A DNA stretch of 64,000 nt from Chromatiales bacterium (lineage in GTDB: Bacteria > Pseudomonadota > Gammaproteobacteria > SpSt-1174): positions 1 through 64,000 of the forward strand of contig JABURS010000034.1 in the NCBI GenBank assembly GCA_014762505.1. Direction: 5' to 3'. The position numbers and the translations under genes are program-made. The notes under the pieces were generated by a model that saw only the letters and a list, made by a program, of their open reading frames with translations, was not told the DNA's origin and ran no database searches. Positions 3,537 to 24,774 of this stretch are shown piece after piece; the first letter of the stretch is position 1, and each line of letters starts with the position of its first letter.

Positions 3537-3543
3537 GTGACAG
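3537..3543 (-). promoter_or_regulatory. possible single Pho-box half-site upstream of phoX
   Basis: On the minus strand CTGTCAC matches the PhoB heptamer (CTGTCAT-like), 119 bases upstream of the phoX ATG. The expected second heptamer 11 bases away is poor (GGCATGT). A stray CTGTCAT in the opposite orientation lies at 3554-3560. This is suggestive of PhoB control but weak, and much less convincing than the array upstream of ptxA. Otherwise 3418-3704 holds no gene. Confidence 0.3.
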
Positions 3544-3704
3544 CGCCAGCAGCCTGTCATGGCAGCGACCTGTTACCCGTCTCCAGGGAAGGGTGGCCAT
3601 ATAGGCGAAAGGCAGCCCGGGCCTGAGGGTAGTCATGCCTCCCCATGAGGGGTGATTGCTCTCCGACCCGGTTCTGCGTATGCGCCTCCCCTGCCGCATC
3701 CCTG

Positions 3705-4565
3705 CTAACTGCAGAGATGCCCGACGAATGAGGATACCGGCGGGTGCCTGGCCAGGGTGCCAGGGTAGATCACCATGAGTTCCTTGGCGAGCCCGGGTTC
3801 CCTTACCGGAATGGCAACCAGGCTTCCTGCCCGCACCTCTTCCTTCACACAGCTTTCCAGTACGAGAGACGCCCCCAGTCCCGCCTTGACCGCCTGCTTG
3901 ACCGCTTCGGTGCTGCCCAGCTGCATGGATACGCTGGGGAATGGGCCATGGCCCCCGAAGAAGGTGGCCAGCAGTCGCCCGGTTCCGGTGCCTGGTTCGC
4001 CACCGATCAGACTCATGCCGGAAAGTGCGTCCCGATCGATATCGGCCCTGCTCGCCCACGGGTGATCCGGCGGAACGATCAGCACCACCGGCTCGTTCCG
4101 CCAGGGCTGCGCGTGGAAGCCGGGTGTCTCGTTCCACCACTCCATCACGGCGACATCCAGCTCCCCGTTGGAGAGTTGTTGCGCAATGGCCGGGTTGGAA
4201 TCGATCACCAGGTCCACTTCCGGGCCGGTTCCCAGGTCCTTATAGGCCCGAACGTGTGGCTGCAGCATGTAGATCCCGATGTTGGAGCTGGCGCCTATTC
4301 GCAGACGGGTGTTCATAACCGATTCCCGCGCCCGCTCATCGAGCCGGAGCATGCTGCGGGCGAATGGCAGCAGGGTCAGGGCGGCCCGGGTGGGCTCGCA
4401 CCGTGAGCGACCCCGCTGCACCAGCAACACGCCCAGTTGCTCCTCCAGCTTCTGGATGTGCTGGGACAGGGTCGGTTGCGCTATGCCCAGATGGTTTGCT
4501 GCTGGCCGGAATCCCTGGTGGTCGATCACTTCCACAAAACTCTTCAACCACACCAGGTTCAGCAT
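3705..4565 (-). CDS. ptxE: LysR-family regulator of the phosphite operon (PtxE-like)
   Basis: A 286-residue LysR-type regulator. Residues 1-60 form the winged helix-turn-helix ([27 protein letters not shown]). Residues from about 90 form the periplasmic-binding-protein-like effector domain ([21 protein letters not shown]... [10 protein letters not shown]...). It is the last gene of ptxABCDE; its ATG overlaps the ptxD stop (ATGCTGA), indicating translational coupling. In Pseudomonas stutzeri WM88 ptxE holds the same position. There the operon is under PhoB control and the exact role of PtxE is less clear than that of PtxD. The name is given from position and family. Confidence 0.88.
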
Positions 4566-5569
4566 GGACTCGCCTCACGGACCCGAGGCAGGTTGATGGC
4601 ATCGTCCGGTTTCTCACCACGCAGGGCCTGCAATATGTTCCTGGCGGCGCGCTGCTCGATGGCCAGTCGGACACTCCTGACGGCTGATCCGATGTGGGCG
4701 GTGAAGAGCGTGTTGGGATGGCTGCGTAATCCCGGGGAAATCTCCCTGGGACGATCCTCTCGCGCCCAGTCCTCCATTTCGAACACGTCGGCTGCATACC
4801 CGCCGAGATGGCCAGACTCGAGTGCCTGCAAGACGGCGGATTCGTCCACCACCGACCCACGGCAGGGATTGATCAGGAAGGCGCCGGGCTTCATCTGGGC
4901 GAGCCGTGACGCGTTCATGGTATGGAGCGTGTGCTCATTGAGGGCCAGGGCAAGGATGACGATATCGGCCCGGGACAACAGCTGCTCCAGCGTCACATGG
5001 GTGACACCCAGATCCTGTTCATCCTGCGCCGACAGCGGCTGGGTTTCCGTGTACAGCACCTCGGCACCCCAGCCATTCAAACGCCGGGAGACGGCCTTGC
5101 CAATAGCGCCCATGCCGATGATGCCGCCGCAGGAACCCTCGATGCCGAGACCATAAAACTCGGGCGTCCAGCCAGCAAACTGCCCTGAACGGACATACTG
5201 GTCCGCCGCACGCACCTGCCGGGCGAGGCCGATGGTCAGCCCGATGGTGAGTTCCGCGGTCGGCACCGTCAGCAGGTCGGGTACGAATGTCAGCCAGACA
5301 CCGTGGCGGGTGCAGGCGTTGACATCGAAATTGTCGTACCCCTTGAGTGCGGCCCCGATGACCTTCAACTGATGACAATCGGCCAGAAAGTCCTCGCCAA
5401 CGCGGTCCGGCATGAAGGCCATTATTGCATCGGCATTGGCCGCCCTGGCCTTGATCTCGTCCCGCGGCAGGGTGGCGCCGGTCTGATTGGTGATGAGTTC
5501 GCAATGGGGCTCGAGGCTTTCCAGGATACTGTCATGCACCCGGTGAGTTATCACAACCTTGGGTTTCAT
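4559..5569 (-). CDS. ptxD: phosphite dehydrogenase (phosphonate dehydrogenase), NAD-dependent
   Basis: A 336-residue D-2-hydroxyacid-dehydrogenase-fold enzyme closely resembling P. stutzeri PtxD, which oxidises phosphite to phosphate with reduction of NAD. The residues defined in that enzyme fall at identical positions here: Met53, Lys76, Arg237, Glu266 and His292. The Rossmann motif is GMGAIG at 152-157, and Glu175, associated with NAD rather than NADP preference, is present. The blocks '[13 protein letters not shown]', '[10 protein letters not shown]' and '[15 protein letters not shown]' are diagnostic of PtxD rather than of generic 2-hydroxyacid dehydrogenases. It starts nine bases after ptxC and overlaps ptxE. 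Confidence 0.95.
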
Positions 5570-5578
5570 ATGGGGTCC

Positions 5579-8123
<2,545 letters not shown>

Positions 8124-8190
8124 AGGATCACCTTTTGCAATGGATAAGCCCGCTGAATTGCGACTTACAATGAAAAGGTAAAGCTGGCGG

Positions 8191-8230
8191 ATGACAGGGG
8201 CGTGTCGCGGGCGTGACAGGTTCGTGAAGT
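8191..8230 (-). promoter_or_regulatory. Pho-box array (PhoB binding) upstream of ptxA
   Basis: On the minus strand the heptamers CTGTCAC (8213-8219), GCGACAC (8202-8208) and CTGTCAT (8191-8197) lie in register, each separated by the same four bases GCCC. A weaker heptamer ACTTCAC (8224-8230) sits a further 11 bases upstream. An 11-bp period of CTGTCAT-like heptamers is the known PhoB recognition pattern. A T-rich stretch and CATTGTAA lie downstream, where the -10 would be expected. Expression of ptxABCDE is therefore likely induced by phosphate starvation. Confidence 0.8.
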
Positions 8231-8263
8231 CAGGCGCGTGATCTGTTCTCTTGTTGCCCTCCC

Positions 8264-9520
8264 CTACACCGTCTTTCGATGCCCGCTCGGCTTCCACGCC
8301 GGTGCGATCACGTCCGGCATGTCGGAGCGTTCCAGCAGCCGGGCCGGTGTCAGCGCGAACTCGCCATAGCGGGCGTTCACGGCATCCATCACCTGGTTCT
8401 TGTCGCCACCCGCCCCGGCCTCGGCAAAGAGGTCGAGCTGCTGTCGCATCGGCCGCGGGTCGAGGGCGGTCACCTGGATCTGGTGCACGGGTTCGCCCCG
8501 CCAGTGGGTCTCGAGGGCGAACTGGCACAGCCGGTAGATGGCCTGGCCGTCATCGCTGGCCGTGGGCAGGCGCAGCTTGTCGCCCCGCCAGCCGTAGTCC
8601 CCTTTCCAGCCGACGAGAAAGCGCTGCGCCTCCATGTCATGCCGCCGCAGCCGGGCGCCGACCTTCTCGCTCATGTGCAGGAAGAAGGTGAGCAGCACGC
8701 CCCTGTCCCGGGTGCCGGGCGGGACCACCTTGCCATGGCCGATGGTCTTGGGCGGCGGGGCCTCCGGGTGTATCCGGTCCGGGTCCTCGCCCTGGCACAT
8801 CAGCCAGATCCGCCGGCCCAGGTTGCCGAAGCGCCGGGCCAGCACGCTGACGGGCAGCCGCTGCATCTGCCCGCAGTACTGCACGCCGTGGCTGGCCAGA
8901 AAGGCACCGATGCCGTCGGCAATGCCGCTCAGGGCCGTGGTCGGCACGTTCGCCAGGCGCTCGCGCGCCTCCCAGGGCGGGATCACGGTGAAGCCGTCGG
9001 GCTTCTGCAGCTTGGCGGCGAACTTGGCGGTGGTCTTGTCCCCGCTCACCCCGATCGAGCACTGCAGGCCCGAGATCGTCTCCACCCGCTGCTTGACCAG
9101 CCGGGCGATGCGCACCGGCGTGCCATGCAGCCGCTGGCAGTGGGTCACGTCCAGAAAGGCCTCGTCGACCGAGTACACCTCCACGTCCGGGCAGATGTCG
9201 TGCAGGCCGGCCATGATCGCCGTCGAGACGGCCGCGTAGACCTGCGGGCGGCTGGGGCGCTGGATCAGCCCCGGGCAGCGCGCCCAGGCCTCCTTCAGGC
9301 GCATCCCCGTGCGGATGCCGTAGGCCCGCGCCTCGTAGGAACAGGTGATGATGGTGGTACCCCGCAGGCCATTGGTGACGGCCACCGGCAACCCCCGAAG
9401 CTCGGGGAAGTCCCGCTGCTCCACCGAGGCGAAAAAGGCGTTCATGTCCACCAGCACGATCGCCCGCGGCCAGTGGACGGGGCAGACCAGGGGTGCGGGA
9501 TCGGGGACGGCGGGCGGCAT
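8264..9520 (-). CDS. Y-family DNA polymerase (Pol IV/UmuC-like)
   Basis: A 418-residue translesion DNA polymerase. The catalytic carboxylates are present in 'VLVDMNAFFASVEQ' (residues 23-36) and 'YSVDEAFLD'; the Phe-Phe pair in the first motif includes the steric-gate position. The palm/fingers (TTIITCSYEARAYGIRTGM), thumb and little-finger domains follow. Near residue 365 is QLDLF, a canonical beta-clamp-binding pentapeptide. The motif differs from DinB (DMDCFFAAVE), so I leave the symbol blank. No imuA, imuB-type or dnaE2 gene, umuD or clear LexA box is nearby. It is convergent with no gene and lies upstream of the phosphite operon on the same strand. Confidence 0.88.
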   Translation of the reverse strand: MPPAVPDPAPLVCPVHWPRAIVLVDMNAFFASVEQRDFPELRGLPVAVTNGLRGTTIITCSYEARAYGIRTGMRLKEAWARCPGLIQRPSRPQVYAAVSTAIMAGLHDICPDVEVYSVDEAFLDVTHCQRLHGTPVRIARLVKQRVETISGLQCSIGVSGDKTTAKFAAKLQKPDGFTVIPPWEARERLANVPTTALSGIADGIGAFLASHGVQYCGQMQRLPVSVLARRFGNLGRRIWLMCQGEDPDRIHPEAPPPKTIGHGKVVPPGTRDRGVLLTFFLHMSEKVGARLRRHDMEAQRFLVGWKGDYGWRGDKLRLPTASDDGQAIYRLCQFALETHWRGEPVHQIQVTALDPRPMRQQLDLFAEAGAGGDKNQVMDAVNARYGEFALTPARLLERSDMPDVIAPAWKPSGHRKTV

Positions 9521-9700
9521 GTGCGGGCGCAGGTTCTCTATCGGTTCTCCCTATCGTAGGGGCACGGCGTATGCCCTGGCAAGGGCCACGCAGGGGGACC
9601 TGCCTAAGCACTTGATTGAACAGAAAAACGCCGCGTAGCGACGTTTGATCAGGACGTGAAAGCGGGTTTGGGGGGCCCAGGGGCGCCGCAGAGAGGGGAC

Positions 9701-9789
9701 TTGCCACAGAGGGCACAGAGGCCACAGAAAGAAAGGTGTGTCCTTGGGCGCCATAGGGCGGGCCGCGCCCGCCATCCCCGCGGAACGCG
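9701..9789. repeat. left 89-bp direct repeat flanking vapBC (CACAGAG-type)
   Basis: This stretch starts TTGCCACAGAGGGCACAG and ends near CGGAACGCG. It recurs at 10556-10644 in the same orientation with one mismatch that I can see. It contains a CACAGAG-rich left part and a palindrome-rich right part (GGGCGGGCCGCGCCCGCC). Related but more diverged copies lie around 10665, 13075-13212 and, inverted, 24541-24571 and 24744-24774. The rest of 9521-9844 shows no gene. Confidence 0.85.
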
Positions 9790-9844
9790 ATCCAGCCAGG
9801 CATCTAGGCTGCTACAGTCCAGCCCCCCGAGCCAGGCTGGCGCA

Positions 9845-9873
9845 ATACACATAAACTCGTATAATTTGTGTAT
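9845..9873 (+). promoter_or_regulatory. vapBC promoter and likely autoregulatory operator
   Basis: A perfect -10 hexamer TATAAT (9860-9865) sits between the arms of an inverted repeat ATACACA (9845-9851) and TGTGTAT (9867-9873). Such a palindrome over the -10 element is the usual binding site of a VapB-VapC repressor complex. The -35 is weak. A strong ribosome site AGGAGGT (9886-9892) precedes the vapB ATG. Confidence 0.65.
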
Positions 9874-9896
9874 CACCAAGCCCGCAGGAGGTCACC

Positions 9897-10130
9897 ATGC
9901 AGACCGACGCCGACACCACCCGCACCAACATCGTCATCGACACCCGCCTGGTTCAGACCGGCCTCAGGCTCACTGGCCTCAAGACCCGGCGCGAGCTGGT
10001 GGACCTCGCCCTGCGCGAGCTCGTCCGCCACGAACAGCAGAAAAAGCTGCTCGCCCTCAAGGGCAGGATCGAGTGGGAGGGTGACCTGGACGCCATGCGT
10101 ACCGACATCCCCGAGGACGACGCACGCTGA
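9897..10130 (+). CDS. vapB: VapB-type antitoxin
   Basis: A 77-residue ribbon-helix-helix antitoxin. The N-terminal strand and helices (RTNIVIDTRLVQTGLRLTGLKTRRELVDLALRELV) form the DNA-binding half. The charged C-terminus (RIEWEGDLDAMRTDIPEDDAR) is the part expected to wrap the PIN toxin. Its stop codon overlaps the vapC ATG (TGATG), as is typical for coupled toxin-antitoxin pairs. It has a consensus ribosome site and a palindromic promoter. The whole unit is bracketed by 89-bp direct repeats. Confidence 0.88.
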   Translation: MQTDADTTRTNIVIDTRLVQTGLRLTGLKTRRELVDLALRELVRHEQQKKLLALKGRIEWEGDLDAMRTDIPEDDAR

Positions 10131-10537
10131 TGCTGGTCGACACCAGCGTCTGGGTGGACTTCTTCGCCGGGCGCGACACCCCGCAGGTGCAGCACCTGGA
10201 GCAGGCCCTGCGCGACGGGGCAGACCTCGCCATCTGCGGCATCGTGCTCACCGAGGTGCTGCAGGGCATCCGCGACGACGCCCAGCACGACCTGGTGCGC
10301 CAGCACCTGAAGCCCCTGCTCATGTTGCCGATGGACGAAGACACCTTCGTCCTCGCCGCCGCGCTGTTTCGCGGCCTGCGCAAACAGGGGCTCACCATCC
10401 GCAAGACCAACGACTGCATCATCGCCGCCACCGCCATCCAGCACGGCCTGCCCCTGCTGCACAACGACCGCGACTTCGACACCCTAGGCCAACACAGCCC
10501 GCTGCAGATCATCGACCCGACCACAGCCAATACCTGA
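10130..10537 (+). CDS. vapC: VapC-type PIN-domain ribonuclease toxin
   Basis: A 135-residue PIN-domain protein. Metal-binding acidic residues are at Asp4 (MLVDTSVWVDFF), Glu42 (LTEVLQG), Asp95 (RKTNDCIIAA) and Asp113/Asp115 (HNDRDF), so the active site looks intact. VapC toxins cleave tRNA or rRNA and are blocked by VapB. It is translationally coupled to vapB. The start is fixed by the overlap. RNA target unknown. Confidence 0.9.
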   Translation: MLVDTSVWVDFFAGRDTPQVQHLEQALRDGADLAICGIVLTEVLQGIRDDAQHDLVRQHLKPLLMLPMDEDTFVLAAALFRGLRKQGLTIRKTNDCIIAATAIQHGLPLLHNDRDFDTLGQHSPLQIIDPTTANT

Positions 10538-10555
10538 GAAGACGCAAGACAGGAT

Positions 10556-10644
10556 TTGCCACAGAGGGCACAGAGGCCACAGAAAGAAAGGTGTGTCCTT
10601 GGGCGCCATAGGGCGGGCCGCGCCCGCCATCCCCGCCGAACGCG
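10556..10644. repeat. right 89-bp direct repeat flanking vapBC
   Basis: Near-identical, same-orientation copy of 9701-9789, beginning 18 bases after the vapC stop. With its partner it brackets vapBC as an 855-bp-period unit. Confidence 0.85.
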
Positions 10645-10664
10645 CTTCAACCTTCGGGCCTAGC

Positions 10665-10730
10665 CACAGAGGGCACAGAGATCACAGAGGGAAACCGCCC
10701 TGGTCGTCATTCCTGCGAAAGCAGGAATCC
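10665..10730. repeat. CACAGAG-type repeat with ATTCCTGC hairpin, left of the receptor gene
   Basis: A CCACAGAGGGCACAGAG box is followed by GTCATTCCTGCGAAAGCAGG and AATCC; ATTCCTGC and GCAGGAAT form a stem around GAAA (10709-10728). The same pair of elements in the same order and orientation occurs at 13139-13212, after the TonB-dependent receptor. The remaining bases to 10923 contain GGTTAGATTGGTCCGACC (about 10808-10825), which resembles the tail of the 13.2-13.5 kb tandem repeat. Confidence 0.75.
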
Positions 10731-10923
10731 AGGAGTCCAAAAGAACCGTGGCCGGTACCGGTTGCTGCGGCCTATCCCCGGCTGTTGTGGCCGTCCAGTC
10801 AGTCGGTTAGATTGGTCCGACCACCCATCTGGCTGCAGCCTTCATGTCGTCAAGCCCGCGAGCCGATCGTTCACCCGCCGGAACGGCACTGGCACATCAA
10901 CGCCCCTATTCCCTGACCACGCG

Positions 10924-13074: not shown

Positions 13075-13212
13075 CCGCGCCCCCATAGGGTGGGCCGCGC
13101 CCGCCATCCCTGCCGAACACGATTCGGTCTTCGAAGGCTTGCCACAGAGAACACAGAGGGCACAGAGAGAAAGACGCGCCCTTGAACGTCATTCCTGCGG
13201 ACGCAGGAATCC
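13075..13212. repeat. composite CACAGAG/ATTCCTGC repeat, right of the receptor gene
   Basis: The first part matches the right part of the 89-bp repeats (CCCATAGGGTGGGCCGCGCC). The second part carries the CCACAGAG...GCACAGAG box and a perfect hairpin, ATTCCTGCG with CGCAGGAAT (13191-13210). It mirrors the element left of the receptor gene, so the receptor gene is bracketed much as vapBC is. Confidence 0.75.
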
Positions 13213-13537
13213 GGTAGACGAAGGGAAAGCCAAAAAATGGCACCTAGCAGCCTCGCGCTTAGACACGGGTTTTCTGGGCTAAAAACGGTCGTTTAAGGCC
13301 GTTTTTCACGTCAAAATTCGAAGATTGTGCAATCTGATCAGAGGGTTAGCTTGGTCCGACCCCGGCTCGATTGCGGCCGCTGGAATCCAGTAGACGAAGG
13401 GAAAGCCAAAAATGGCACCTAGCAGCTCCCCGCTTAGACACCGGTTTTCTGCGCTAAAAACGGTCGTTTAAGGCCGTTTTTCACGTCAAAATTCGAAGAT
13501 TGTGCAATCTGATCAGCGGGTTAGCTTGGTCCGACCC
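13206..13537. repeat. two tandem 157-bp repeats with internal hairpin
   Basis: Copy 1 is 13206-13362 and copy 2 is 13382-13537 (period about 176), with only scattered differences. Each starts GGAATCC..GTAGACGAAGGGAAAG and ends GGTTAGCTTGGTCCGACC. Each contains a ten-base-pair hairpin, AAAAACGGTC with GGCCGTTTTT around GTTTAA (13281-13306 and 13456-13481). With A's before and T's after, these hairpins could terminate transcription from both the receptor gene and the convergent minus-strand operon. No coding potential is seen across 13018-13592. Confidence 0.85.
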
Positions 13538-13592: not shown

Positions 13593-14617
13593 CTAAAATG
13601 CAAGCGGCGCATCGTGGTCTATTTTCAAGTTACCCTGAGCAGTAGATTCCTCAATGAATTCGATTATCGAGATACCACCCGGCTCCCCATCTTCGTCGTC
13701 TCGATTATCGAAATTATTCGACTCACTTGAGCCCCGACCCTTTGGCTTCTCAAACTTACTTTTGATCTGATTTAAAGCGAATGAATCTGATATTGAATCA
13801 GCCCCACTGAGAAAGCATACCGCGCGTAGCCCACCACTTGCCGCTGACGCTCGCTTCATAAATAACGATACTCTTTGCCCTGTGATTTCAAGCAAGTCGT
13901 GAATCACGCGGCACCAGTCTATTTTCCGTCTCGGAGGCGGCGATTCGTACGGCTTTCCGGCGTTGCCGAGAATGAACTCAATAAGCTCGGAAGCAAAACA
14001 ACGTGAGTTAATCAAACCATCTAAAGATGCCTGAGCCACGAGCACTGGCACCTGTATATTCCAATCTGGATAACAACGCCATTCCGGGAATTTCTTTGCG
14101 TAGACATCCATTTCCGGAATCAGCAGATACTGCGTGGCAGATGAAAGATTCACCCCTCGAATATGTCTTTCCTTCCCATTGAGCGAAGCGGTCGATCTGA
14201 CGTATTCAAAGGTCGGCCAGTCTGAATACAGATAAAGCTGATTTCTATTACCTGGATCCAATGAAAAGCCCTTCGTCTTTTTGGCCTGAAGCAAAAGGGC
14301 ACGGCGGTCGATTATGTTGCCATCCTGACTTATCCTAGATCGTATTAGCAACAGATCTCCTATCTCCACCGCTTTTGGCGATTTATCAGGGAACTTGTCT
14401 GACATGACAAGTGGCTGCGAGTGCACAAACACTCCGCCTGCGCGAAAGACAGGCCCACGATCCCACGCCACCCCATTCACAGCTTGAGGAATTTTCGTGA
14501 CTAAGTTAGCTATAATCTCCGGCTCTGACTTCCGATAATCCCCAATTGCAGAAATACCGCATCCACGACCGCATTACTAAGGCGCCGATAACTTTCCTCG
14601 GAAACTCCACTTTTCAT
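13593..14617 (-). pseudogene. unrecognised protein with possible E-D-QxK nuclease motif, apparently frameshifted
   Basis: The main open frame (13593-14480, GTG start, 295 residues) lacks a proper start. A frame with a good ribosome site (AAGGAAG) and ATG at 14617 encodes 'MKSGVSEESYRRLSNAVVDAVFLQLG' and then stops after 35 codons. One extra base in the four-base C run on the plus strand (14540-14543) would join it to 'DYRKSEPEIIANLVTKIPQ' and on into the main frame, giving about 341 residues. In the main frame Glu39, Asp42 (VEIGDLLLI) and Gln65-x-Lys67 (ALLLQAKK) resemble the core of Mrr-like PD-(D/E)xK nucleases; that is my inference. It starts 37 bases after the DUF429 gene, as the last gene of the restriction operon. 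Composition is AT-richer than the flanks. Coding certainty is high, function unknown. Confidence 0.6.
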
Positions 14618-14654: not shown

Positions 14655-15404
14655 TTACCCACTCACGGGCCGCTCATTCACACCTCGCACCCAAATCCAG
14701 CCTTCTCGCTCTGCCAACTCCAGGTCCACTGGCTGCTCGGCAAGTCCATCCATAAAATCTTTTGCGGCGATCAAACATATACAGGCATCAAATACATCCA
14801 CACTACCATCAAGATACGCATCTAATCCGACTATTTCCGCTGAGATACCCATGGAAATATCATGGCGAACCTCAGCTTGATCGAATTTCTTATAAGCAGA
14901 ATGAGGAAGCCCTCGCGCTTTTAGCGTTGCAGCCGGATAGACTTCGATGGCCGCCGAAGAGGAAAAATTCCGGGACCAGGCCAACGGAATTCCCTCTCCC
15001 GTAGCTTCCCGCAGCATTTGAAGTGCGCCGAGCGCCGAATGAGCGGCCCGGGCGATCTTGTCCGCCCCAACTTCGAGAGGCTTCTTGGCAAGCCGCCTAT
15101 GTATCACTCGGTCGGTTTCGCGATGAAACATCGCGTCTTTAGACTTGGAAATTACCTGACCAGCCTCATGGGTCTGGAGTGCTTCAGCCATTGACTTCGG
15201 CCAACCCAAAGGAGCATCAATGGCGATAAGCGCCTTATCCGCCGATTTTATTTTTGGCGCCACAGATGAAAGCAGTGCATTTGTGTCGTCTTTCGTCTTG
15301 ATCAATCCGGCCTCTATGATCCCAACACGTCCGTCCTCATATTGCCCCAAGGCAAATCCAAACTTCGTAAAATCAGACGCGGCATCAAGCCCCACAAGCA
15401 GCAT
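14655..15404 (-). CDS. DUF429 family protein (predicted RNase H-like fold)
   Basis: A 249-residue DUF429 protein. The N-terminal strand with an early Asp (MLLVGLDAASDF, Asp7), the 'ALIAIDAPLGWPKS' block with a second Asp, and 'RETDRVIHRRLAKKPLEVGADKIARAAHSAL' are family hallmarks. The C-terminal 'AAIEVYPAATLKARG' and 'DVFDACICLIAAKDFMDG' supply further conserved acidic positions. The family is predicted to adopt an RNase H-like fold with a metal-dependent active site, but its activity is not established. It starts two bases after the stop of the alarmone hydrolase gene, so both are surely co-transcribed behind hsdR. Lower GC than the housekeeping genes. Confidence 0.85.
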   Translation of the reverse strand: MLLVGLDAASDFTKFGFALGQYEDGRVGIIEAGLIKTKDDTNALLSSVAPKIKSADKALIAIDAPLGWPKSMAEALQTHEAGQVISKSKDAMFHRETDRVIHRRLAKKPLEVGADKIARAAHSALGALQMLREATGEGIPLAWSRNFSSSAAIEVYPAATLKARGLPHSAYKKFDQAEVRHDISMGISAEIVGLDAYLDGSVDVFDACICLIAAKDFMDGLAEQPVDLELAEREGWIWVRGVNERPVSG

Positions 15405-15406
15405 GA

Positions 15407-15931
15407 TTATGGTCTCCGCGCATACGCCTCGTCGAAAATCCGCTCCAGCCGATCATGGGACCCTCTAACGTGATCGATAACCGCCTTCGCCCAGTCGAAA
15501 TACTGGCGCTTTCGATCCAAATCCCAGTCTGCGGGAGGAGACGCGACGATATCTCGTAGGTTACAGATTTTATCGGCGAGTTTAACGAGCTTGGCTTTAT
15601 GGCAGGCATGCGCGGCATGCTCTATTTGGCAACGCTTGCGCTCTTCCTTCGGAAGCATTTTATCGTCAGTTACATCCATTACGATAGATAATATCTCCGC
15701 GCCAAAGGCTCGTTCGAGCTCCTCCGGAGTAGTTTCTGTGTCCTCTATCGTGTCATGCAAAAGGGCCCCACAGACTACTGCGACATCATCAACTCCTGCC
15801 TCATCTACAAGAACACTCGCCAAAGCAATCGGATGATTGATATAGGGTGACGCCTGAACATCCTTTCGGCGTTGATCGCGATGCTTATGCGCAGCGAAGC
15901 TAAGAGCTCGGAATATCAATGCAAGATCCAT
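15407..15931 (-). CDS. MESH1-like small alarmone hydrolase (HD domain)
   Basis: A 174-residue stand-alone HD-family phosphohydrolase matching the hydrolase half of RelA/SpoT. It has 'FAAHKHRDQRRKD' (residues 12-24), 'SPYINHP' with His33, 'LLHDTIEDT' with His59-Asp60 and Glu63-Asp64, and 'KLADKICNLRD' with Asp120. All expected metal ligands and the ED pair for 3'-pyrophosphate hydrolysis are present. There is no synthetase, TGS or ACT domain, so it is a small alarmone hydrolase of the kind that hydrolyses (p)ppGpp or related nucleotides. It starts four bases after the hsdR stop and is followed by DUF429 after two bases. Its presence inside a restriction operon is unusual. Confidence 0.88.
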   Translation of the reverse strand: MDLALIFRALSFAAHKHRDQRRKDVQASPYINHPIALASVLVDEAGVDDVAVVCGALLHDTIEDTETTPEELERAFGAEILSIVMDVTDDKMLPKEERKRCQIEHAAHACHKAKLVKLADKICNLRDIVASPPADWDLDRKRQYFDWAKAVIDHVRGSHDRLERIFDEAYARRP

Positions 15932-15935
15932 TTAA

Positions 15936-18900
15936 TCACCCACCCATGTTTCTCATATCGTGAAGAATCAGATCCATCAGCACCTTCGCCGATGCCCTCA
16001 ATACGTAAGGGTCGCGCAGAATGCGCCCGGCCAAATCCTGATGATTCTCCAAACTATCGATCACAGCCGCCTGGAAGGCCTCTGGGAAATCACCCAACAT
16101 CACCTGCTCTGGCGTATTGTTCTCGAGCTGCGCGACCACGGCGCTGTTTTCCATCACCTTGTCTTTGATCGTCCGCAAGTAGTTGAGCCGGTCGGCATCG
16201 GATAGCCCCTCCCCTGCGAACAACTCATTAAGCCTCGCAATGATCTCGGCCAGGGTCTCCTTTTCGGGATCACGGGCCTGGCCGCCGCCCGGACCTTCTC
16301 CCCGGATTTTGTATTCGGTTTCGCCTTCGGCCAGGTTGATGCGGTGTTCGCCCTGCTTCTTGAGGCGATAGTGGGTCAGATCTACACCTGAGAGGTCCAA
16401 CGGCTGATCGAGCTCTGCCTGCCGCAGCAACGGTCGCAAGTGCCGGGCGTAAACGGCGAGCTTTTCCAGGTCGCGGTCGTCCAGGGCGACGATCTGGGAG
16501 ATGAACTCGTAGTAGCGCACGAAGCTGCCGAGGTCTTTGCGGAAGAGGTCGAGGACGCTCTTTTCCTCGCCGGCGCTCTGGACGGCGCGGTTGGCGTTGG
16601 CGGCGCCGACCTCATCGCCGTTCATTTTTGCCTGGCGTTCTTCGCGCTGGGCATCCTGCAGTGCCTGGGTGGCGGATTTGTAGCGTTCTTTGTAGCGGTC
16701 GACGGCGGGGCGCACGTGGTAGTTGAGCTTGTCCTGGGTCTGCTTGGGGTCGAAGAAGGCGTCGGCGAAGGCTTCCACCTCCTCCCAGCGGAAGATGCGC
16801 TCGGCCTCGAGCTTTTCCTGCAGGTCGTAGATCAGGTTGGGATCGGAGACGTCCTCCAGCTCGGCCGTGCGGTAATAGGGCTTGAAGGCGGCCAGTACGT
16901 CTTCGGGTTTGTTGACGAAATCCAGGACGAAGGGGTCTTCCTTGCCGGGATAGGTGCGGTTGAGGCGCGAGAGCGTCTGCACGCAGTCCACGCCGGAGAG
17001 CTTCTTGTCCACGTACATGGCACAGAGCTTAGGCTGGTCGAAGCCGGTCTGGAACTTGTTGGCAACGATCATCACCTGGTATTCGTCGGTGTCGAAGGCG
17101 TCGCGCAGGTCGCGGCCCTTGAGGCCGGGGTTCATGTTGCGCTCGTTGAACGCTTCCGGGCCGCTTTCCTTGTCCTCCACATCACCCGAGAAGGCCACCA
17201 GGGCGTGCACGTCGGTGTAGCCGTGCTCGGTCACGTATTTGTCCAGGGCGAGCTTGTAGCGCACGGCAGCCTTGCGTGAGTCGGTCACCACCATGGCCTT
17301 GGCCTGGCGGTTGAGCTGGGCGGCCACATGCTGGCGGAAGTGCTCGACGATCACCTGCACCTTCTGCTCGATGTTGTAGGGATGCAGCTTCACCCACTGG
17401 TAGAGCTTGGTGGCGGCCTTGCCCTTGTCCACCTCCTCTTCCGCCGCCTGCTTCTGCTCCAGGCGGAAGGCCATGCTGTAGGTGGTGTAGCGCTTGAGCA
17501 CGTCGAGGATGAAGCCCTCCTCGATGGCCTGCTGCATGGTGTAGACGTGAAAAGCCTCGGGCAGGTTGTCCGGTCCCGGCTCCTGGGTGGGATCGGGCGG
17601 GCGGCCGAAGAGCTGCAAGGTCTTGGCCTTGGGCGTGGCGGTGAAGGCGAAGTAGCTGATGTTGCGCGCCTGGCTGCGCGCGGCCAGGGTGGCGTCCAGC
17701 ACGTCCTCGGCGGTGATCTCGGCATCCTCCTCCAGCTCATCGGCCATCAGCACCTGACGCAGCTTGCGGGCGGTGGCGCCGGTCTGGGAGGAATGGGCCT
17801 CGTCGGCGATCACGGCGAAGCGCCGCTCCTTGAGGCTGGTCTGCTGCTGGATGGCCTCCAGCACAAAGGGGAAGGTCTGCAGGGTAACGATGATGATGCG
17901 GGTGTTGCCCATCAAGGCCTCGGCGAGCTGGGCGGACTTGCTGCCCTCGCCCTCCTCGCGGCTGATGCGGCACACCACCCCCTCGGCGTGCTCGAACTGG
18001 TAGATGGTCTCCTGCAGCTGGTCGTCCAGCACCGTGCGGTCGGTGATGACGATGACCGAATCGAACACCCGCTGGTCGTGGTCGTCGTGCAGCGAGGCCA
18101 GCCGGTGGGCCGTCCAGGCGATGGAGTTGGACTTGCCGGAACCCGCGCTGTGCTGGATCAGGTACTTGTGGCCCGGCCCCTCCGCGCGGGCGGTGGCCAC
18201 CAGCTGGTTGACCGCATCCCACTGATGGAAGCGCGGGAAGATCAGGGTCTCCTTGGTGTAGCGCTTGCCGAAGCCGTCCTCCTTCTCCTCCTTTTGCAGG
18301 TGGATAAAGCGGCCCAGGATGTCCAGCCAGGCATCGCGCTGGAAGACCTGCTTCCAGAGGTAATCCGTGGCATAGCCGTCCGGGTTGGGCGGGTTGCCGG
18401 CCCCGCCCTCGAAGCCCTTGTTAAAGGGCAGGAAGAAGGTGTCCCGGCCGGCCAGCTTGGTGGCCATCCACACCTCTTCCTGGCTCACGGCAAAGTGCAC
18501 CAGGGCGCGCTTGCCGAAGACCAGCAGCGGCTCGGGCTTGCGGGTCTTGGGGTCTTTGGGCGGGCGATCCTTCTTGTACTGCCACTTGGCGTTGTCGATG
18601 GCCTGCTTGAACTCAGACTTGAGCTCCAGGGTCGCCACCGGCACGCCGTTGACGAATAGCACCAGGTCCAGGCGCGGGTTGTATTCCCCCTGGCGGGCAT
18701 AGGGGGAGTAGGAGACCTCCTGCACCACGCGCAGGCGGTTGGCCTCATAGCGGGCCAGGGTCTCGGGATTCAGGCCGTGGTCGGGCTTGAAGGGGCAGAG
18801 CCGGATCTTGGCGCCCCGGTCCTTGAAGCCGTGGCGCAGCACGTACAAGGCGCCGTGCTTGTCCATCTGCTCGGCGGCCCGGGCCAGTAGTTTTTCCTCG

Positions 18901-19091
18901 ACCTTGTCGCCGTAGAACTTGGTGAGCTTTTCCAGCGCCTCCGGCTGGGTGTCGCGCACATAGCCGACCAGATCCTCCGGGTAGAGGGCCAATTCGCGAT
19001 GATAGTGCTCCGACTTTCCCTCCAGCCAGCCCTGCCCCACCAGATCGGTGATGATGGCCTGCTGAAAGATATTCTCCCTGGCCTTATCCAT
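15936..19091 (-). CDS. hsdR: type I restriction enzyme R subunit (HsdR)
   Basis: A 1051-residue motor and nuclease subunit. An N-terminal PD-(D/E)xK nuclease domain has Asp142 (NPRLDLVLFVNG) and Glu156-x-Lys158 (ATLELKS). The SF2 translocase follows with Walker A (SAGSGKS near 315-321), DEAH (430-433) and motif III (FAFTATPK). The helicase C-terminal half has 'VANKFQTGFDQP' and 'LSRLNRTYPGK', and a helical C-terminus binds the methylase core. It cleaves foreign DNA at a distance after ATP-driven translocation. It starts 160 bases after the DUF3800 gene. Its first 17 coding bases are identical to those of the DUF3800 gene. Confidence 0.95.
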   Translation of the reverse strand: MDKARENIFQQAIITDLVGQGWLEGKSEHYHRELALYPEDLVGYVRDTQPEALEKLTKFYGDKVEEKLLARAAEQMDKHGALYVLRHGFKDRGAKIRLCPFKPDHGLNPETLARYEANRLRVVQEVSYSPYARQGEYNPRLDLVLFVNGVPVATLELKSEFKQAIDNAKWQYKKDRPPKDPKTRKPEPLLVFGKRALVHFAVSQEEVWMATKLAGRDTFFLPFNKGFEGGAGNPPNPDGYATDYLWKQVFQRDAWLDILGRFIHLQKEEKEDGFGKRYTKETLIFPRFHQWDAVNQLVATARAEGPGHKYLIQHSAGSGKSNSIAWTAHRLASLHDDHDQRVFDSVIVITDRTVLDDQLQETIYQFEHAEGVVCRISREEGEGSKSAQLAEALMGNTRIIIVTLQTFPFVLEAIQQQTSLKERRFAVIADEAHSSQTGATARKLRQVLMADELEEDAEITAEDVLDATLAARSQARNISYFAFTATPKAKTLQLFGRPPDPTQEPGPDNLPEAFHVYTMQQAIEEGFILDVLKRYTTYSMAFRLEQKQAAEEEVDKGKAATKLYQWVKLHPYNIEQKVQVIVEHFRQHVAAQLNRQAKAMVVTDSRKAAVRYKLALDKYVTEHGYTDVHALVAFSGDVEDKESGPEAFNERNMNPGLKGRDLRDAFDTDEYQVMIVANKFQTGFDQPKLCAMYVDKKLSGVDCVQTLSRLNRTYPGKEDPFVLDFVNKPEDVLAAFKPYYRTAELEDVSDPNLIYDLQEKLEAERIFRWEEVEAFADAFFDPKQTQDKLNYHVRPAVDRYKERYKSATQALQDAQREERQAKMNGDEVGAANANRAVQSAGEEKSVLDLFRKDLGSFVRYYEFISQIVALDDRDLEKLAVYARHLRPLLRQAELDQPLDLSGVDLTHYRLKKQGEHRINLAEGETEYKIRGEGPGGGQARDPEKETLAEIIARLNELFAGEGLSDADRLNYLRTIKDKVMENSAVVAQLENNTPEQVMLGDFPEAFQAAVIDSLENHQDLAGRILRDPYVLRASAKVLMDLILHDMRNMGG

Positions 19092-19251: not shown

Positions 19252-20001
19252 TCAGGGGTAGCACTTCAACCCCCACCCCTCGATTTGCCCGTGTCTGTTG
19301 CGGCGGAATTTCGGCTCCAGGATCTCATAGGCCCGGTTGTCCTGGTCGGGATTCAGCAACCGTCTGCCGATGGGCCTCGCCACCATATCGGCAAGCTGCA
19401 ACCCCGCAGAATTCGATTTTTTGTCCGCCAGTACGAGAGACAGGGTATCGGCCATCCCCACCATCCCGCTCTCATCCATAATCCGGCGAAACTCCAGTTC
19501 CAGTTCATCGTCTTCCCGGCGACCTCGCCTTTCGAAGATCACATGGGTGAGTTTTCCTCGCTGGCCCCGTGACTGCAATTCAAGAAAGACGCGCTCCAGA
19601 CCAAACTCCATAGCCACATGGTAAGGATTATGGTCATGTCCACGCCTGGCAACGAATCCTTCCTTGAGAATACAGCTCGCGATGATTGTAAAGGGAGCTG
19701 CTCCAACAAGGGCATTTAGATCGCGGAAAAACGGCTCGCGGATCTCTGGATTCAGCAGCATATCGAACGGACGTTTTGACTTGCGTATATCCGCCTCATG
19801 CAAAACCACCATGTCATGGCCAAAATAGCGGAACTTGAACGCCTGAACGGCCGGCACCACCTGTTCGATATACGCCCGCTTATCGAATATGCAAAACGCC
19901 AGCACGAATACCGGAAACTCCGGGTTGATGTGCTTGAGACCGTGATCCCCGCTCTCGTCCACATAGACTACGTAGTCGCCAAATTCCCTGGCCTTATCCA
20001 T
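19252..20001 (-). CDS. DUF3800 family protein inserted between hsdS and hsdR
   Basis: A 249-residue DUF3800 protein. The diagnostic N-terminal 'YVVYVDESGDHG' carries the acidic pair, and the C-terminal block 'AGLQLADMVARPIGRRLL' has the conserved Gln-Leu-Ala-Asp. 'HEADIRKSKRPF' and the central 'ERRGRREDDELELEFRRIM' are also typical. The family is predicted to be RNase H-like and often lies in mobile or defence loci; its biochemical role is not established. It begins nine bases after hsdS. The first five codons (MDKAR) copy the start of hsdR, pointing to insertion at the hsdR start. Confidence 0.85.
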   Translation of the reverse strand: MDKAREFGDYVVYVDESGDHGLKHINPEFPVFVLAFCIFDKRAYIEQVVPAVQAFKFRYFGHDMVVLHEADIRKSKRPFDMLLNPEIREPFFRDLNALVGAAPFTIIASCILKEGFVARRGHDHNPYHVAMEFGLERVFLELQSRGQRGKLTHVIFERRGRREDDELELEFRRIMDESGMVGMADTLSLVLADKKSNSAGLQLADMVARPIGRRLLNPDQDNRAYEILEPKFRRNRHGQIEGWGLKCYP

Positions 20002-20010
20002 GACTCCCCT

Positions 20011-21354
20011 TTAGGCGCTGGCGGCTTCTGCCGCTTCTTCTGGTTCGGTGTTGGGTTTCTGCCAGCCACGGACGTCGATCTTGCCGGTGACGGCGGCGGA
20101 GATTAGCGCCGTCCTGTGTTCTTTCAGCAGCGAGATCATCAACTGCGCACGTTCACTCAACTGTGCAAAACGATCGAGCTTCGACAGCAGGTGATTGGTG
20201 ATTTCCACCTGTTCTTTGAGTGGGGGGAATGTACCCCACACTTTTAGTAGGTTTTGGATCGATAAGCGCCTGAGCGCAGCCCCCTTTACGAAGCTCTCCA
20301 CTTGCTCTTGAACGGCTTTACCTTGCATCAGAAAATCAAGGAACTTGGGAGTTACCACTTTCAAATTGGGCTTAATAATTATCAGGGACGATGCCACTAC
20401 GAACTCTGGTTCATGGGGTGTTATCGCCGTCTCACCGATTGTCCCATCCTTACTGAACAGGAGGTCACCCGGCGCGGGTTGGCAGCCAGTCCTAGCCAAG
20501 TATTCGTAATTTTCAATCGCTGTCAGAAGACAATCTTCGAAATCGATCTGCCCATCCTTAATGTCTCTGATCGAAACGAAGTAGTGCTCTCCATTTTCCG
20601 TGACAGGAGAGATATGAGCACCATCGGTTATTTCTTTGCACTTGTGTTTAACCAGACAGACATCCCAATGCGCCGGCACTTCACCCAGCCACTCCACACC
20701 GGAGTCCTTCATCGGCGCGTCGGGGTTGAGGCCCTTGGTGACGGCATGGGAGATCACCGCCTGCCGCTTTTCCTTGAGCAACTCGATCAGCCGCTCCTGC
20801 TTGGCGATCAGCCGGTCGATCTTGGCGGTTTCGTGGTCGAGGAAGGCGGCGATTTCACGTTGTTCTTCGATCAAAGGGAATGCGACAGGGGCACTACCGA
20901 ACTTTCCCCATGTAACATGCTGCATAGTTGAGCCGTGAGTCTCGTTATCGAGTTCACCCACAAACCATTTAGAAAGCCAAACCAAAAACCCTTTGGAAAC
21001 GATTCTTTCGTCAGGAACCACTTTAAAAATGTGCTGATTTAGCCACGCATCCTCTCGATCCCAAGTATGGACGCTTAGAGACGCTGACCACGAAATCAAC
21101 ATATCACCAGACTCGACGCGGTACTTATCAGGCACGCTACGGTTCGTCCGATTTATATCTGCATTCGCATCCGTTAGATTTTGGATTCGAATGATGGGCG
21201 TACCCTCTTCTCCCCAGTCAGCCGGCTTAAAGGCGAATCCGTTTATGTACTCCGCTACATACTTGGCCTTACTCAATCGCCAATGGGAAGGAATAACGGG
21301 CAGCTTTCGCTCCGCTGTCTCTCGATAGTCTGGATACGGGGGCCATTTCGCCAT
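20011..21354 (-). CDS. hsdS: type I restriction-modification specificity subunit (HsdS)
   Basis: A 447-residue specificity subunit with two target-recognition domains. TRD1 starts at 'IPSHWRLSKAKYVAEYINGFAF' and TRD2 at 'VPAHWDVCLVKHKCKEITDGAHI'. They are separated by the conserved coiled spacer (EEQREIAAFLDHETAKIDRLIAKQERLIELLKEKRQAVISHAVTKG) and end with a partly matching second spacer (LKEQVEITNHLLSKLDRFAQLSERAQLMISLLKEHRTALISAAVTG). It sets the bipartite DNA sequence recognised by the M and R subunits; the sequence cannot be read from the protein. Its ATG shares a base with the hsdM stop (TGATG). TRD regions are AT-richer than hsdM, as is common for exchanged TRDs. Confidence 0.94.
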   Translation of the reverse strand: MAKWPPYPDYRETAERKLPVIPSHWRLSKAKYVAEYINGFAFKPADWGEEGTPIIRIQNLTDANADINRTNRSVPDKYRVESGDMLISWSASLSVHTWDREDAWLNQHIFKVVPDERIVSKGFLVWLSKWFVGELDNETHGSTMQHVTWGKFGSAPVAFPLIEEQREIAAFLDHETAKIDRLIAKQERLIELLKEKRQAVISHAVTKGLNPDAPMKDSGVEWLGEVPAHWDVCLVKHKCKEITDGAHISPVTENGEHYFVSIRDIKDGQIDFEDCLLTAIENYEYLARTGCQPAPGDLLFSKDGTIGETAITPHEPEFVVASSLIIIKPNLKVVTPKFLDFLMQGKAVQEQVESFVKGAALRRLSIQNLLKVWGTFPPLKEQVEITNHLLSKLDRFAQLSERAQLMISLLKEHRTALISAAVTGKIDVRGWQKPNTEPEEAAEAASA

Positions 21355-23321
21355 CAGGCATGCACCTCAGCCAACAGCCCCATGATCTCCCGGCTGACCT
21401 GATCCAGGTCCGCATCGATCTCCTCCAGCGGGCGCGGCGGCACGTATTGGTAGAAGTGGCGATTGAAGGGGATCTCGTAACCGACGATGCCCACCTGGCC
21501 GTCCTGCTCGTCCTTCTTGGACTCGTCGATCCAGGCATCGGGCACGTGGGGCGTGACCTCGCGGGCGAAATAGGCATGGATGTCCTCGCCCAGGGGGACG
21601 TTCTCGTTGTCGCGCAGATCGGGATTAGGCTCGGGCTGGCCCTTGGTCTTGCAGACCTCGGCCGCCTCGTCGTGCTCGCCCAGGTGCTTCTGCAGTAGCT
21701 TGAAGGCCGGGGCCGGCAGCGCTTGGCCATCCATGTGCACCTTGAGCCATTTCTTGAAGGTGCTGCGGGAGAGGATCTTGTCTTCCTCGAAGCGCGGCAG
21801 GGCGTCGAGTATGGCCTGGCGCAGGGCTTCGTCCAGCTTTTCCCAGCCCTTGTCAGCCTGCAGGGCGGCCAGGCGGGTTTCGTCCTTGGGGTGGAAGGCG
21901 AGCTGCAGTGGGCGTTCGACGGTGATGCGGCGGTAGCCGAAGGCCTGCGTGTGGAAGATCTTGCTGGTCTCGGTCTCCTCGAAGGCGCCGTAGAGGCGCA
22001 CGATGGCCTCGATGCTGTCTTCGGTGAGGTACTTGCGCTTGGAGCCGAGGGACTTGCGCATCTTCTCGCCCATGTCGGTGGCGTTGATGAGCTGCACCCG
22101 GCCCTTGCGCTCGGGCCGCTTGTTGTTGGACAGCACCCACACGTAGGTGGCGATACCGGTGTTGTAGAACATATCCGTGGGCAGCGCGACGATGGCTTCA
22201 AGCAGGTCGTTCTCCAGGATGTAGCGCCGGATCTCGGACTCGCCGGAGCCGGCGCCGCCGGTGAAGAGCGGCGAGCCGTTGAGGATGATGCCGATGCGCG
22301 AGCCCTGCTCCTTGGCATCCCGCATCTTGCTCATCAGGTGCATGAGGAACAGCAGCGAGCCGTCGGAGACGCGCGGCAGGCCCGGCCCGAAGCGACCGGC
22401 GTGGCCCTTGAGCTTGTGCTCGTCCTGCACCTGCTTTTGCACCTTCTTCCAGTCCACGCCGAAGGGCGGATTGGAGAGCATGAAGTCGAACTGCTGGCCG
22501 GGCAGCTGGTCGTCGGACAGGGTGTTGCCCAGCTTGATGTTGTCGATCTCGTGGCCCTTGATGAGCATGTCCGCCATGCAGATGGCGTGGGACTCGGGGT
22601 TGAGCTCCTGGCCGAACACCCGCACGCGGGCATCCTTGGAGATGGAGTGGATGTATTCCTCCCCCTCGGACAGGAAGCCGCCGGTGCCGGCGGTGGGGTC
22701 ATACACGGTGACGATCTTGCCGGGGGCGATCTTCTCCTGCTGGTCGGTGAACAACAGCGCCGTGGTCAGGTGCACGATGTCGCGCGGCGTGAAGTGCTCC
22801 CCGGCCGTCTCGTTGGAAGATTCCGCGAATCGGCGGATCAGTTCCTCGAAGATCAGGCCCATCTCATAGTTGCTGTGGGCCTTCGGGCTCAGATCGGTGC
22901 TCGCGAAGCGCTGGATGACCTGATACAGCAGATTGGCCTCATCCAGCTTCTCCAGGAAGCCGTGAAAGCCGAAGTGCTCGAAGATCTCCCGCGCCTCGGG
23001 GCTGAAGCTGCGGATGTAGGTATCGAGGTTATCGAGTACCTGGGTCTCGCCCAGGCTGGCAAGGTCCATGGGCGAGGTGTTGTAGAACTTGAGCCCGCCC
23101 GAGGCCTTCTCCAGGAACGGCCCCAGCGGCAGGTCCTGATCCTTGCGCTTCTCATACTCGGCCAGCACTGCGGGCTTGGTAGGCGCCAACACGCACTCCA
23201 GGCGGCGCAGCAGTGTGAACGGCAGGATGATGCGGCCGTACTGGGATTGCTTGAAGTCGCCCCGCAGGAGGTCGGCGACGGACCAGAGGAAAGAGGCTGT
23301 GGTGGAGAAGTTTTCGGTCAT
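21354..23321 (-). CDS. hsdM: type I restriction-modification methyltransferase subunit (HsdM)
   Basis: A 655-residue N6-adenine methyltransferase subunit. The N-terminal helical HsdM_N domain (residues 5-150) is followed by the methylase core, with SAM motif I '[10 protein letters not shown]' (208-217) and catalytic motif IV 'NPPFG' (284-288). The long C-terminal region carries '[26 protein letters not shown]', found in this HsdM subfamily. It is the first gene of the operon. The ATG at 23321 lacks an obvious ribosome site. It modifies host DNA with HsdS and joins HsdR for restriction. Confidence 0.95.
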
Positions 23322-23618
23322 TTGTCGTTATTGTTCTGAGTAATTGGAAGCCATAACGCCCAAGTCTGCCGGAATTCTAACATCTGTAAAGGCGGTGGCG
23401 GGGTTCCTGGAGACCTGGTTTTCAGTTGTTGCCAGCCATCTGGCCCGGTTTTCCGTTAATTATTGCGCCATTTGGCCCATGAACCGCCTCAAGATACTCG
23501 CGCCAGAGCCTAGATGCTTTACTTTTACCATACATAACAATACGTTAGCTTTCACCACATACCCGAAGAGCTGAAAATACTGCCCCCAGATCGGTATTCC
23601 CTTTCTGGTAATTATTGC
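23322..23618. other. divergent intergenic region between hsdM and higBA
   Basis: About 300 AT-richer bases that must carry the leftward hsd operon promoter and the rightward higBA promoter. A TTTACA-like hexamer is seen on the minus strand near 23384, but no confident -10 partner. No gene is recognised. Confidence 0.45.
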
Positions 23619-23638
23619 TATTATTCCCAAATCGGGAA
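23619..23638 (+). promoter_or_regulatory. higBA -10 region and palindromic operator
   Basis: A -10-like TATTAT (23619-23624) runs directly into the perfect inverted repeat TTCCC-AAATC-GGGAA (23624-23638), 12 bases upstream of the higB ATG. A HigA dimer is the likely ligand. The -35 is not convincing. Confidence 0.5.
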
Positions 23639-23650
23639 CCCGGGGAGCCT

Positions 23651-23935
23651 ATGAAGGTCTTAGGACGAGACAAACTCACGAAATTCAGCAGAAAGCATGC
23701 GGCGGCCAAGCCCGCCCTGGATGCCTGGTTTCAGGAGGCGGTAGAGGCCGACTGGCGGAAACCCCAAAACATCAAGGATCGCCATCGCAGTGCCGACTTC
23801 CTCGCTGGCAATCGCGTGATCTTCAACATCAAGGGAAATCATTTCCGCTTGGTGGTTAAGGTGCGATATCAAAATGGCATTGTCGTTGTGGAATGGGTGG
23901 GTACCCATGCGGAATACGACAAGCAGCGATTCTAA
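23651..23935 (+). CDS. higB: HigB-type mRNA interferase toxin
   Basis: A 94-residue RelE-superfamily toxin of the HigB_toxin family. 'ALDAWFQEAVEADWRKPQNIKDRHRSADFLAGNRVIFNIKGNHFRLVVKVRYQNGIVVVEWVGTHAEYDK' is written here only to its key points: the WRxPxDIK-like segment, 'RVIFNIKGNxFRL', and the terminal 'GTHAEYDK', whose His-Tyr are characteristic. The toxin precedes the antitoxin, as is usual for hig loci. The start at 23651 is chosen because family members begin 'MKVLGRDKL', with GGGGAG just upstream. It should cleave mRNA on the ribosome. Confidence 0.88.
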   Translation: MKVLGRDKLTKFSRKHAAAKPALDAWFQEAVEADWRKPQNIKDRHRSADFLAGNRVIFNIKGNHFRLVVKVRYQNGIVVVEWVGTHAEYDKQRF

Positions 23936-23945
23936 GGAGAGGGCC

Positions 23946-24353
23946 ATGACTCACATCAAACTCATCAAATCCGAACAAGAGCATGAACAGGCGCTCGCAC
24001 GCCTGATGCACTCGATGGATGTTGATCCGGAGCCGGGCAGCGCGGAAGCGGATGAGCTGGAGGTGCTGTCAGTGCTGATCGAGCGCTATGAGGAAGAACA
24101 GTTCCCCATGGACCCGCCAGATCCGATCGAGGCCATCAAATTCCGCATGGACCAGCAAGGGCTCAAGAACAAAGACCTGGTCCCCTACATCGGCTCCGCG
24201 CCGAAGGTTTCGGAGGTGCTGAATGGCAAGCGCCAACTCAGCCTGAAAATGATTCGCAGGCTGAGCGATGGGCTGGGGATACCGGCCGAGGTGTTGATTC
24301 GGGAGCCTGCGCAGCAGGTAGCCCCGATGAAACGCAATGGAACGCGTGGGTAA
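23946..24353 (+). CDS. higA: HigA-type XRE-family antitoxin
   Basis: A 135-residue antitoxin. The N-terminal half (MTHIKLIKSEQEHEQALARLMHSMD...) is the toxin-binding region. The C-terminal half is a helix-turn-helix ('DLVPYIGSAPKVSEVLNGKRQLSLKMIRRLSDGLGIPAEVLI'). The ATG at 23946 has a strong AAGGAG site and lies ten bases after the higB stop. It neutralises HigB and represses the promoter. Confidence 0.9.
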   Translation: MTHIKLIKSEQEHEQALARLMHSMDVDPEPGSAEADELEVLSVLIERYEEEQFPMDPPDPIEAIKFRMDQQGLKNKDLVPYIGSAPKVSEVLNGKRQLSLKMIRRLSDGLGIPAEVLIREPAQQVAPMKRNGTRG

Positions 24354-24462
24354 TCGGGGAGTACCGAACCAAACACCGGATTCGGTAATCGCTGCATCTG
24401 GGATACGAAGTCTGGGTCGCGGTCGCAGGGGTGGCGGGCATGGCCCACCCTATCAGGGCTGG

Positions 24463-24774
24463 GTGTAAGCCGTGATGGCTATGTATGACTTTGCTGCCAG
24501 CCCTTGATCGCGCCTTTCGGCGCTCCTACGAAACTTCGCCTTCTCTGTGACCTCTGTGCCCTCTTTGGCGCATTGGTCTTTTTCCTGACCACCGGCGCGG
24601 CGGCCACGGGCCGCCCTATGGGGCGTGGTGCTGATTGTGTGTCGGTGCGGCGTTTAAGCGCTCTGAGTGTAGGCCGTGATGGCCATGTCGGGCCTGGCTG
24701 CAGCCCTTGATCGCGCCTTTCGGCGCTCCTACGAACCCTTGCCTTCTCTGTGTCCTCCGTGCCCTCTGTGGCGC
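24463..24774. repeat. tandem composite repeat with REP elements and inverted CACAGAG boxes
   Basis: Two copies about 70 bases long, at 24463-24532 and 24667-24735, share GTGTA(A/G)GCCGTGATGGC and end in a REP-like palindrome. On the minus strand it reads TTCGTAGGAGCGCC-GAAA-GGCGCGAT (24507-24532 and 24710-24735), matching the GTAGGAGCG type known from pseudomonads. Each copy is followed by a CTCTGTG...CTCTGTGCCCTCT box (24541-24571 and 24744-24774), the reverse complement of the CACAGAG repeats near vapBC. The region 24354-24780 has no gene. Confidence 0.8.

Follow-up and report, generated by a model that had tools for sequence, protein, structure and literature searches.

A Mesh1-type alarmone hydrolase gene, followed by a DUF429 gene, at the 3′ end of a type I restriction-modification operon

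A gene for a small alarmone hydrolase begins four bases past the restriction subunit gene of a type I restriction-modification (RM) operon in a Chromatiales bacterium. What is such an enzyme doing there: does it serve restriction or defense, does it work with the DUF429 gene that follows it, or is it cargo of the operon? We addressed this in the window, a stretch of 64,000 nucleotides that contains the whole operon, in the rest of the genome, and in related loci elsewhere. We favor, with a probability of roughly 55%, the reading that the gene encodes a functional accessory 3′-pyrophosphohydrolase, carried as cargo downstream of the RM operon and co-translated with a DUF429 nuclease.

The genes of the locus are on the minus strand, where the transcription order is hsdM (type I methyltransferase, 21354–23321), hsdS (type I specificity subunit, 20011–21354), a DUF3800 gene inside the RM operon (19252–20001), hsdR (type I restriction subunit of 1051 aa, 15936–19091), MESH1 (15407–15931), DUF429 (14655–15404) and then an orphan ORF of 295 aa. 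Assignments of hsdM and hsdS rest on family and PADLOC matches, that of the DUF3800 gene on a family match, and that of hsdR on the PADLOC REase_I match. A full-length relative of this hsdR, 76% identical, is found in genome G016. The first 17 nt of hsdR (19075–19091) and of the DUF3800 gene (19985–20001) are identical, both beginning MDKARE, which looks as though DUF3800 had entered between hsdS and hsdR and the start of hsdR had been duplicated in the process. In one other locus (L345, genome G203) DUF3800 likewise lies directly before hsdR.

A MESH1-like hydrolase gene four bases past hsdR had been described in a sequence-only reading, and the ORF is real; it runs from an ATG at 15931 to 15407 on the minus strand, a strand which that reading had left out, and encodes 174 aa of the Mesh1 class of small alarmone hydrolases (SAHs). 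The product matches the Pfam HD_4 profile over residues 9–140 (E = 1.2e-18) and human MESH1 (HDDC3; PDB 3nr1) over residues 4–171 (E = 6.8e-53), with 84 of 168 aligned residues (50%) identical to the human protein; by these sequence scores its homology to the MESH1 family is far above chance. It consists of a single HD_4 domain, with the length of ∼170–180 aa and the lack of synthetase, TGS and ACT domains that define an SAH. The HD-site residues that had been named (H33, H59, D60, E63, D64 and D120) are all present at those numbers. Alignment with 118 homologues shows H59, D60, E63, D64, D120, K117 and N124 to be invariant, and H33 too apart from one gap. Judged from its residues the enzyme is catalytically intact, and activity would be expected of it. 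It resembles human MESH1 (PDB 3nr1 and 5vxa) and Drosophila Mesh1 (3nqw) as a full-length single-domain HD hydrolase with all catalytic residues and with K95, R140 and Y144 in common with the human protein; it differs from them in being a bacterial, predicted hydrolase encoded in an RM operon. In a MESH1 tree whose sequences include no Mesh1-L reference, it takes a place among Mesh1 proteins of proteobacteria, and the human protein lies inside that tree as well. E. coli has no match to the gene. MESH1 homologues also occur in phage genomes and viral contigs (L173, 3932–5205; L216–L220; L207), possibly as phage alarmone hydrolases; in Bordetella phage PHB04 the gene is followed by one for a metallophosphoesterase, with the portal gene near.

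As an HD enzyme, presumably Mn2+-dependent, the window MESH1 would strip the 3′-pyrophosphate from (p)ppGpp and/or (p)ppApp. Its substrate range cannot be predicted from sequence, because the range differs among characterized SAHs: all four alarmones are substrates of Mesh1, whereas SAHMex acts essentially on (p)ppApp alone (PMC7644958). Could the main substrate instead be NADPH or the phosphate of CoA, with a role in redox metabolism as proposed for metazoan MESH1? The protein is a true Mesh1-type sequence that agrees with human MESH1 at the three residues just named, and dephosphorylation by MESH1 has been reported both for NADPH (PMC9765508 and work cited there) and for CoA (PMC13221220). 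However, in coupled assays NADPH was hydrolyzed weakly by Mesh1/MESH1 and not by SAHMex, (p)ppApp being hydrolyzed well (PMC7644958), and XccSAH fell far below Mesh1 in NADPH efficiency (PMC9765508). We regard such a cofactor role as improbable.

The 2.77-Mb genome has an estimated completeness of 100%, and its matches to the synthetase profile PF04607 are two long RSHs only, of 726 and 735 aa, the latter also having an HD domain related to the window MESH1. The earlier remark that no synthetase lies nearby is thereby borne out genome-wide: as read from sequence, the genome carries RelA and SpoT and no small alarmone synthetase. Because there is no such synthetase, the window MESH1 classes as an orphan hydrolase additional to SpoT, which it would supplement. 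Similar orphan SAHs stand alongside long RSHs in Methylobacterium (SAHMex) and Xanthomonas (XccSAH) (PMC7644958, PMC9765508), although their reported context is not RM. A toxSAS partner for MESH1 was also considered. The toxSAS antitoxin hydrolases and Aph1 are likewise single-domain alarmone hydrolases, and some SAHs are tied to toxic synthetases; we rejected this candidate, as there is no toxic small synthetase beside the gene or anywhere else in the genome.

Spacing at the 3′ end of the operon is tight. With the stop codon of hsdR ending at 15936 and MESH1 starting at 15931, 4 bases separate these two genes, and DUF429 starts at 15404, 2 bases past the MESH1 stop. A Shine-Dalgarno-like stretch, GGTGG/GGTGA, precedes the MESH1 ATG in the sequence formed by the hsdR 3′ end and the 4-nt spacer (minus strand, 15932–15948, GGGTGGGTGATTAAATG), and another, GGAGA, precedes the DUF429 ATG at the MESH1 3′ end (minus strand, 15405–15418, CGGAGACCATAATCATG). 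Since these stretches sit within the end of each upstream gene, translational coupling from hsdR through MESH1 to DUF429 is likely. Sigma-70-like promoters showed no excess. In the reading we favor, MESH1 would share transcription and translation with the RM genes and DUF429, while taking no part in restriction itself. Base composition separates the tail from the rest of the operon: GC content is 0.51 in MESH1, 0.52 in DUF429 and 0.48 in the orphan ORF, versus 0.63 in hsdR, 0.64 in hsdM and 0.65 in the window. This low GC suggests that the operon tail originated elsewhere, and MESH1 may have been acquired horizontally, a low-GC gene carried as cargo where type I RM operons vary, at the 3′ end.

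Context surveys were made from both sides. Among 30 other hsdR relatives with flanks, neither MESH1 nor DUF429 follows hsdR in the visible sequence (contig ends limit the downstream view for a few, such as L146 and L344), and the downstream position holds varied genes. A conserved hsdR–MESH1 unit, seen at no other hsdR locus, was rejected. The 118 other MESH1 loci, which come from genomes, plasmids, phages and viral contigs, included none with window-type hsdR or hsdM adjoining MESH1; they showed no conserved gene context and no steady linkage to any defense family. Close-packed neighbors in the loci sampled were mostly housekeeping genes (lspA/ispH, an Opp ABC ATPase, UPF0047, YdjC, tilS and a PLP enzyme). 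As far as gene neighborhoods tell, the window MESH1 is not a conserved component of type I RM.

Besides the window, two MESH1 loci lie clearly among defense genes. One (L302, genome G614, 2983–10764) is an integrase-linked island, in which GmrSD and a MESH1 broken by a stop codon are followed by an HsdM-like N6-methyltransferase and HsdS; it alone among the 118 has HsdM/HsdS beside MESH1. In the other, a phage contig (L207, 424–4971), MESH1 sits between AbiEi/AbiEii and an unmatched gene of 577 aa. MESH1 is therefore able to be a defense-island gene, but exceptionally. The sequence-only reading had held that homologues consistently outside defense loci would speak against its proposal of an anti-phage or counter-signal role, and they are nearly so, these two loci being the exceptions.

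An accessory dedicated to RM or defense would remove alarmone or (p)ppApp that arises in infection or that an incoming phage or plasmid toxin, such as a (p)ppApp synthetase, produces, or would neutralize an adjoining effector. The operonic position after hsdR is what such an accessory would have, and the company of GmrSD, HsdM and HsdS in L302 and of AbiE in L207 fits it as well, as does the match of the window DUF429 to PADLOC PDC-S44, a candidate label only. Precedents come from (p)ppApp hydrolases, which are universal immunity proteins against MuF adenosine 3′-pyrophosphokinases (PMC12226406), and from Xanthomonas, which is sensitized to killing by Pseudomonas when its SAH is lost (PMC9765508). 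Set against these are the want of conserved linkage between MESH1 and any defense family, the stop codon that breaks the one MESH1 beside RM genes, the fact that no PADLOC model matches the window MESH1, and a genome free of toxic synthetases. We consider a dedicated defense role improbable; with no shared context in 118 loci, a visible MESH1 downstream in 0 of 30 other hsdR relatives and just two further clear defense neighborhoods, the counter-signal proposal found little to sustain it.

The product of the gene after MESH1 (249 aa, minus strand) matches the DUF429 profile, Pfam PF04250, at E = 4e-15, and in alignment has the conserved acidic residues D7, D63, E154 and D206. Its AlphaFold model (pLDDT 78, pTM 0.81) found as best PDB matches by Foldseek the RuvC, RuvX and MOC1 resolvases, with modest TM-scores, so that the predicted fold is RNase H-like, of the RuvC/RuvX type. 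The family has itself been placed in the RNase H-like superfamily, in clade D with RuvC and RuvX (PMC3985635). Poorly characterized as DUF429 is, its best-studied member couples RNase H activity to alarmone synthesis: RelZ of Mycobacterium smegmatis (MS_RHII-RSD, MSMEG_5849), representing a DUF429-RelA/SpoT synthetase fusion of actinobacteria, has a DUF429 domain with RNase HII activity, which cuts RNA-DNA hybrids and resolves R-loops, fused to a (p)ppGpp synthetase (PMC7591505, PMC4429107, PMC3153485). Given the superfamily, the resolvase-like matches of the model and the activity of the RelZ domain, the window DUF429 is most likely, by model and analogy, a nuclease acting on nucleic-acid structures. 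Its closest relatives are in housekeeping contexts without MESH1, and no window-type DUF429 was found in viral contigs or phages.

The MESH1-DUF429 pair recurs in Burkholderia. In B. pyrrocinia, B. multivorans, B. stagnalis, B. anthina and one further genome (L170, L175, L176, L294 and L014) the order is SbcD-like, SbcC/YhaN-like, MESH1, DUF429. Both genes, their order and their close spacing (2 nt in the window, −4 to 9 nt in Burkholderia) are as in the window; what lies upstream, in place of type I RM, is an exonuclease/AAA ATPase pair. The DUF429 proteins have strongly diverged, being 29% identical over a 113-residue stretch, and the Burkholderia MESH1s form a separate supported clade in the MESH1 tree; on both these grounds the two pairings look to have arisen independently. 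A phmmer search with the window DUF429 as query had placed DUF429 at no MESH1 locus; the annotation of Burkholderia showed otherwise, as did an iterated HMM. Above the cut-off, PF04250 is matched in 8 of the 47 MESH1-bearing genomes; in 2 of the 8, the window genome and a Burkholderia, the match adjoins MESH1. With the window left out the proportion is 1 of 7, where by our estimate chance would yield a few per thousand, assuming genomes of several thousand genes. Paraburkholderia has a solitary DUF429 gene, and Caballeronia a solitary MESH1.

Do the two genes then form a functional module, a split counterpart of the mycobacterial RelZ? Where DNA is stalled or broken, DUF429 would cut branched DNA or the RNA of RNA-DNA hybrids (R-loops), the adjoining hydrolase would clear alarmone so that replication and transcription restart, and the pair would attach to operons for DNA breakage or processing, which in the window is type I RM and in Burkholderia the SbcD/SbcC-like genes. 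The same order and close spacing at two positions in the tree, with DUF429s so diverged, argue for such a module, as do adjacency in 2 of the 8 genomes, the RuvC/RuvX-like fold of the model and the fusion to a synthetase in a protein that cuts RNA-DNA hybrids. Arguing against it are the absence of DUF429 from most MESH1 genomes, the solitary genes of Paraburkholderia and Caballeronia, and the housekeeping contexts of the nearest relatives. RelZ, moreover, is one fused protein with a synthetase, the window has separate ORFs with a hydrolase, and these are opposite activities. We hold a two-gene module to be possible but unlikely, and somewhat more doubtful still its fullest form, an undescribed mirror image of RelZ in which nuclease and hydrolase on DNA-breaking or -processing operons serve RNA-DNA hybrid removal and restart. 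The sequence-only reading had named DUF429 as the partner of the hydrolase. The Burkholderia pairs and the RelZ fusion lend substance to a partnership, but the protein is an RNase H-like nuclease and not a known toxin.

The window MESH1 is an enzyme of a known type whose position is unusual. For the cargo reading, which we prefer, we draw on sequence evidence, namely the identity and residues of the enzyme, the RSH census, the hsdR and MESH1 context surveys and the GC contrast. Pure cargo does less well with three points: the tight hsdR-MESH1-DUF429 spacing looks selected, MESH1 stands in defense neighborhoods in L302 and L207, and the recurring MESH1-DUF429 pair with strongly diverged DUF429s is poorly explained by chance. 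If the gene is cargo only, it adds one more to the orphan Mesh1 enzymes that have been described in bacteria since 2011. The recurrent pairing is the part worth keeping, and it may be meaningful; now that two lineages are seen to place a DUF429 protein beside an alarmone hydrolase, it becomes testable in simple strains whether the removal of RNA-DNA hybrids is linked to alarmone turnover.

The orphan ORF begins 174 nt past DUF429 (minus strand, 13593–14480; its frame is open to 14573, giving up to 326 aa), and whether it belongs to the operon is uncertain. It has no family match and no homologue in plasmids or 274 genomes, and its single-sequence structure model (pLDDT 34) was unusable. Its motif LLLQAKK resembles PD-(D/E)XK, a mere impression. 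Beyond hsdM, on the plus strand and divergent from it, is a HigBA-like toxin-antitoxin pair (23615–24353). Related dispersed repeats in inverted orientation (13079–13537 and 24406–24774) enclose the orphan ORF, the HigBA-like genes and all that lies between them. The right-hand repeat has copies or relatives on many contigs of the genome, and a same-genus contig (G001:C51) ends here, close to the right-hand boundary. A pair related to the HigBA-like genes lies ∼1 kb upstream of MESH1 in another locus (L301, genome G467).
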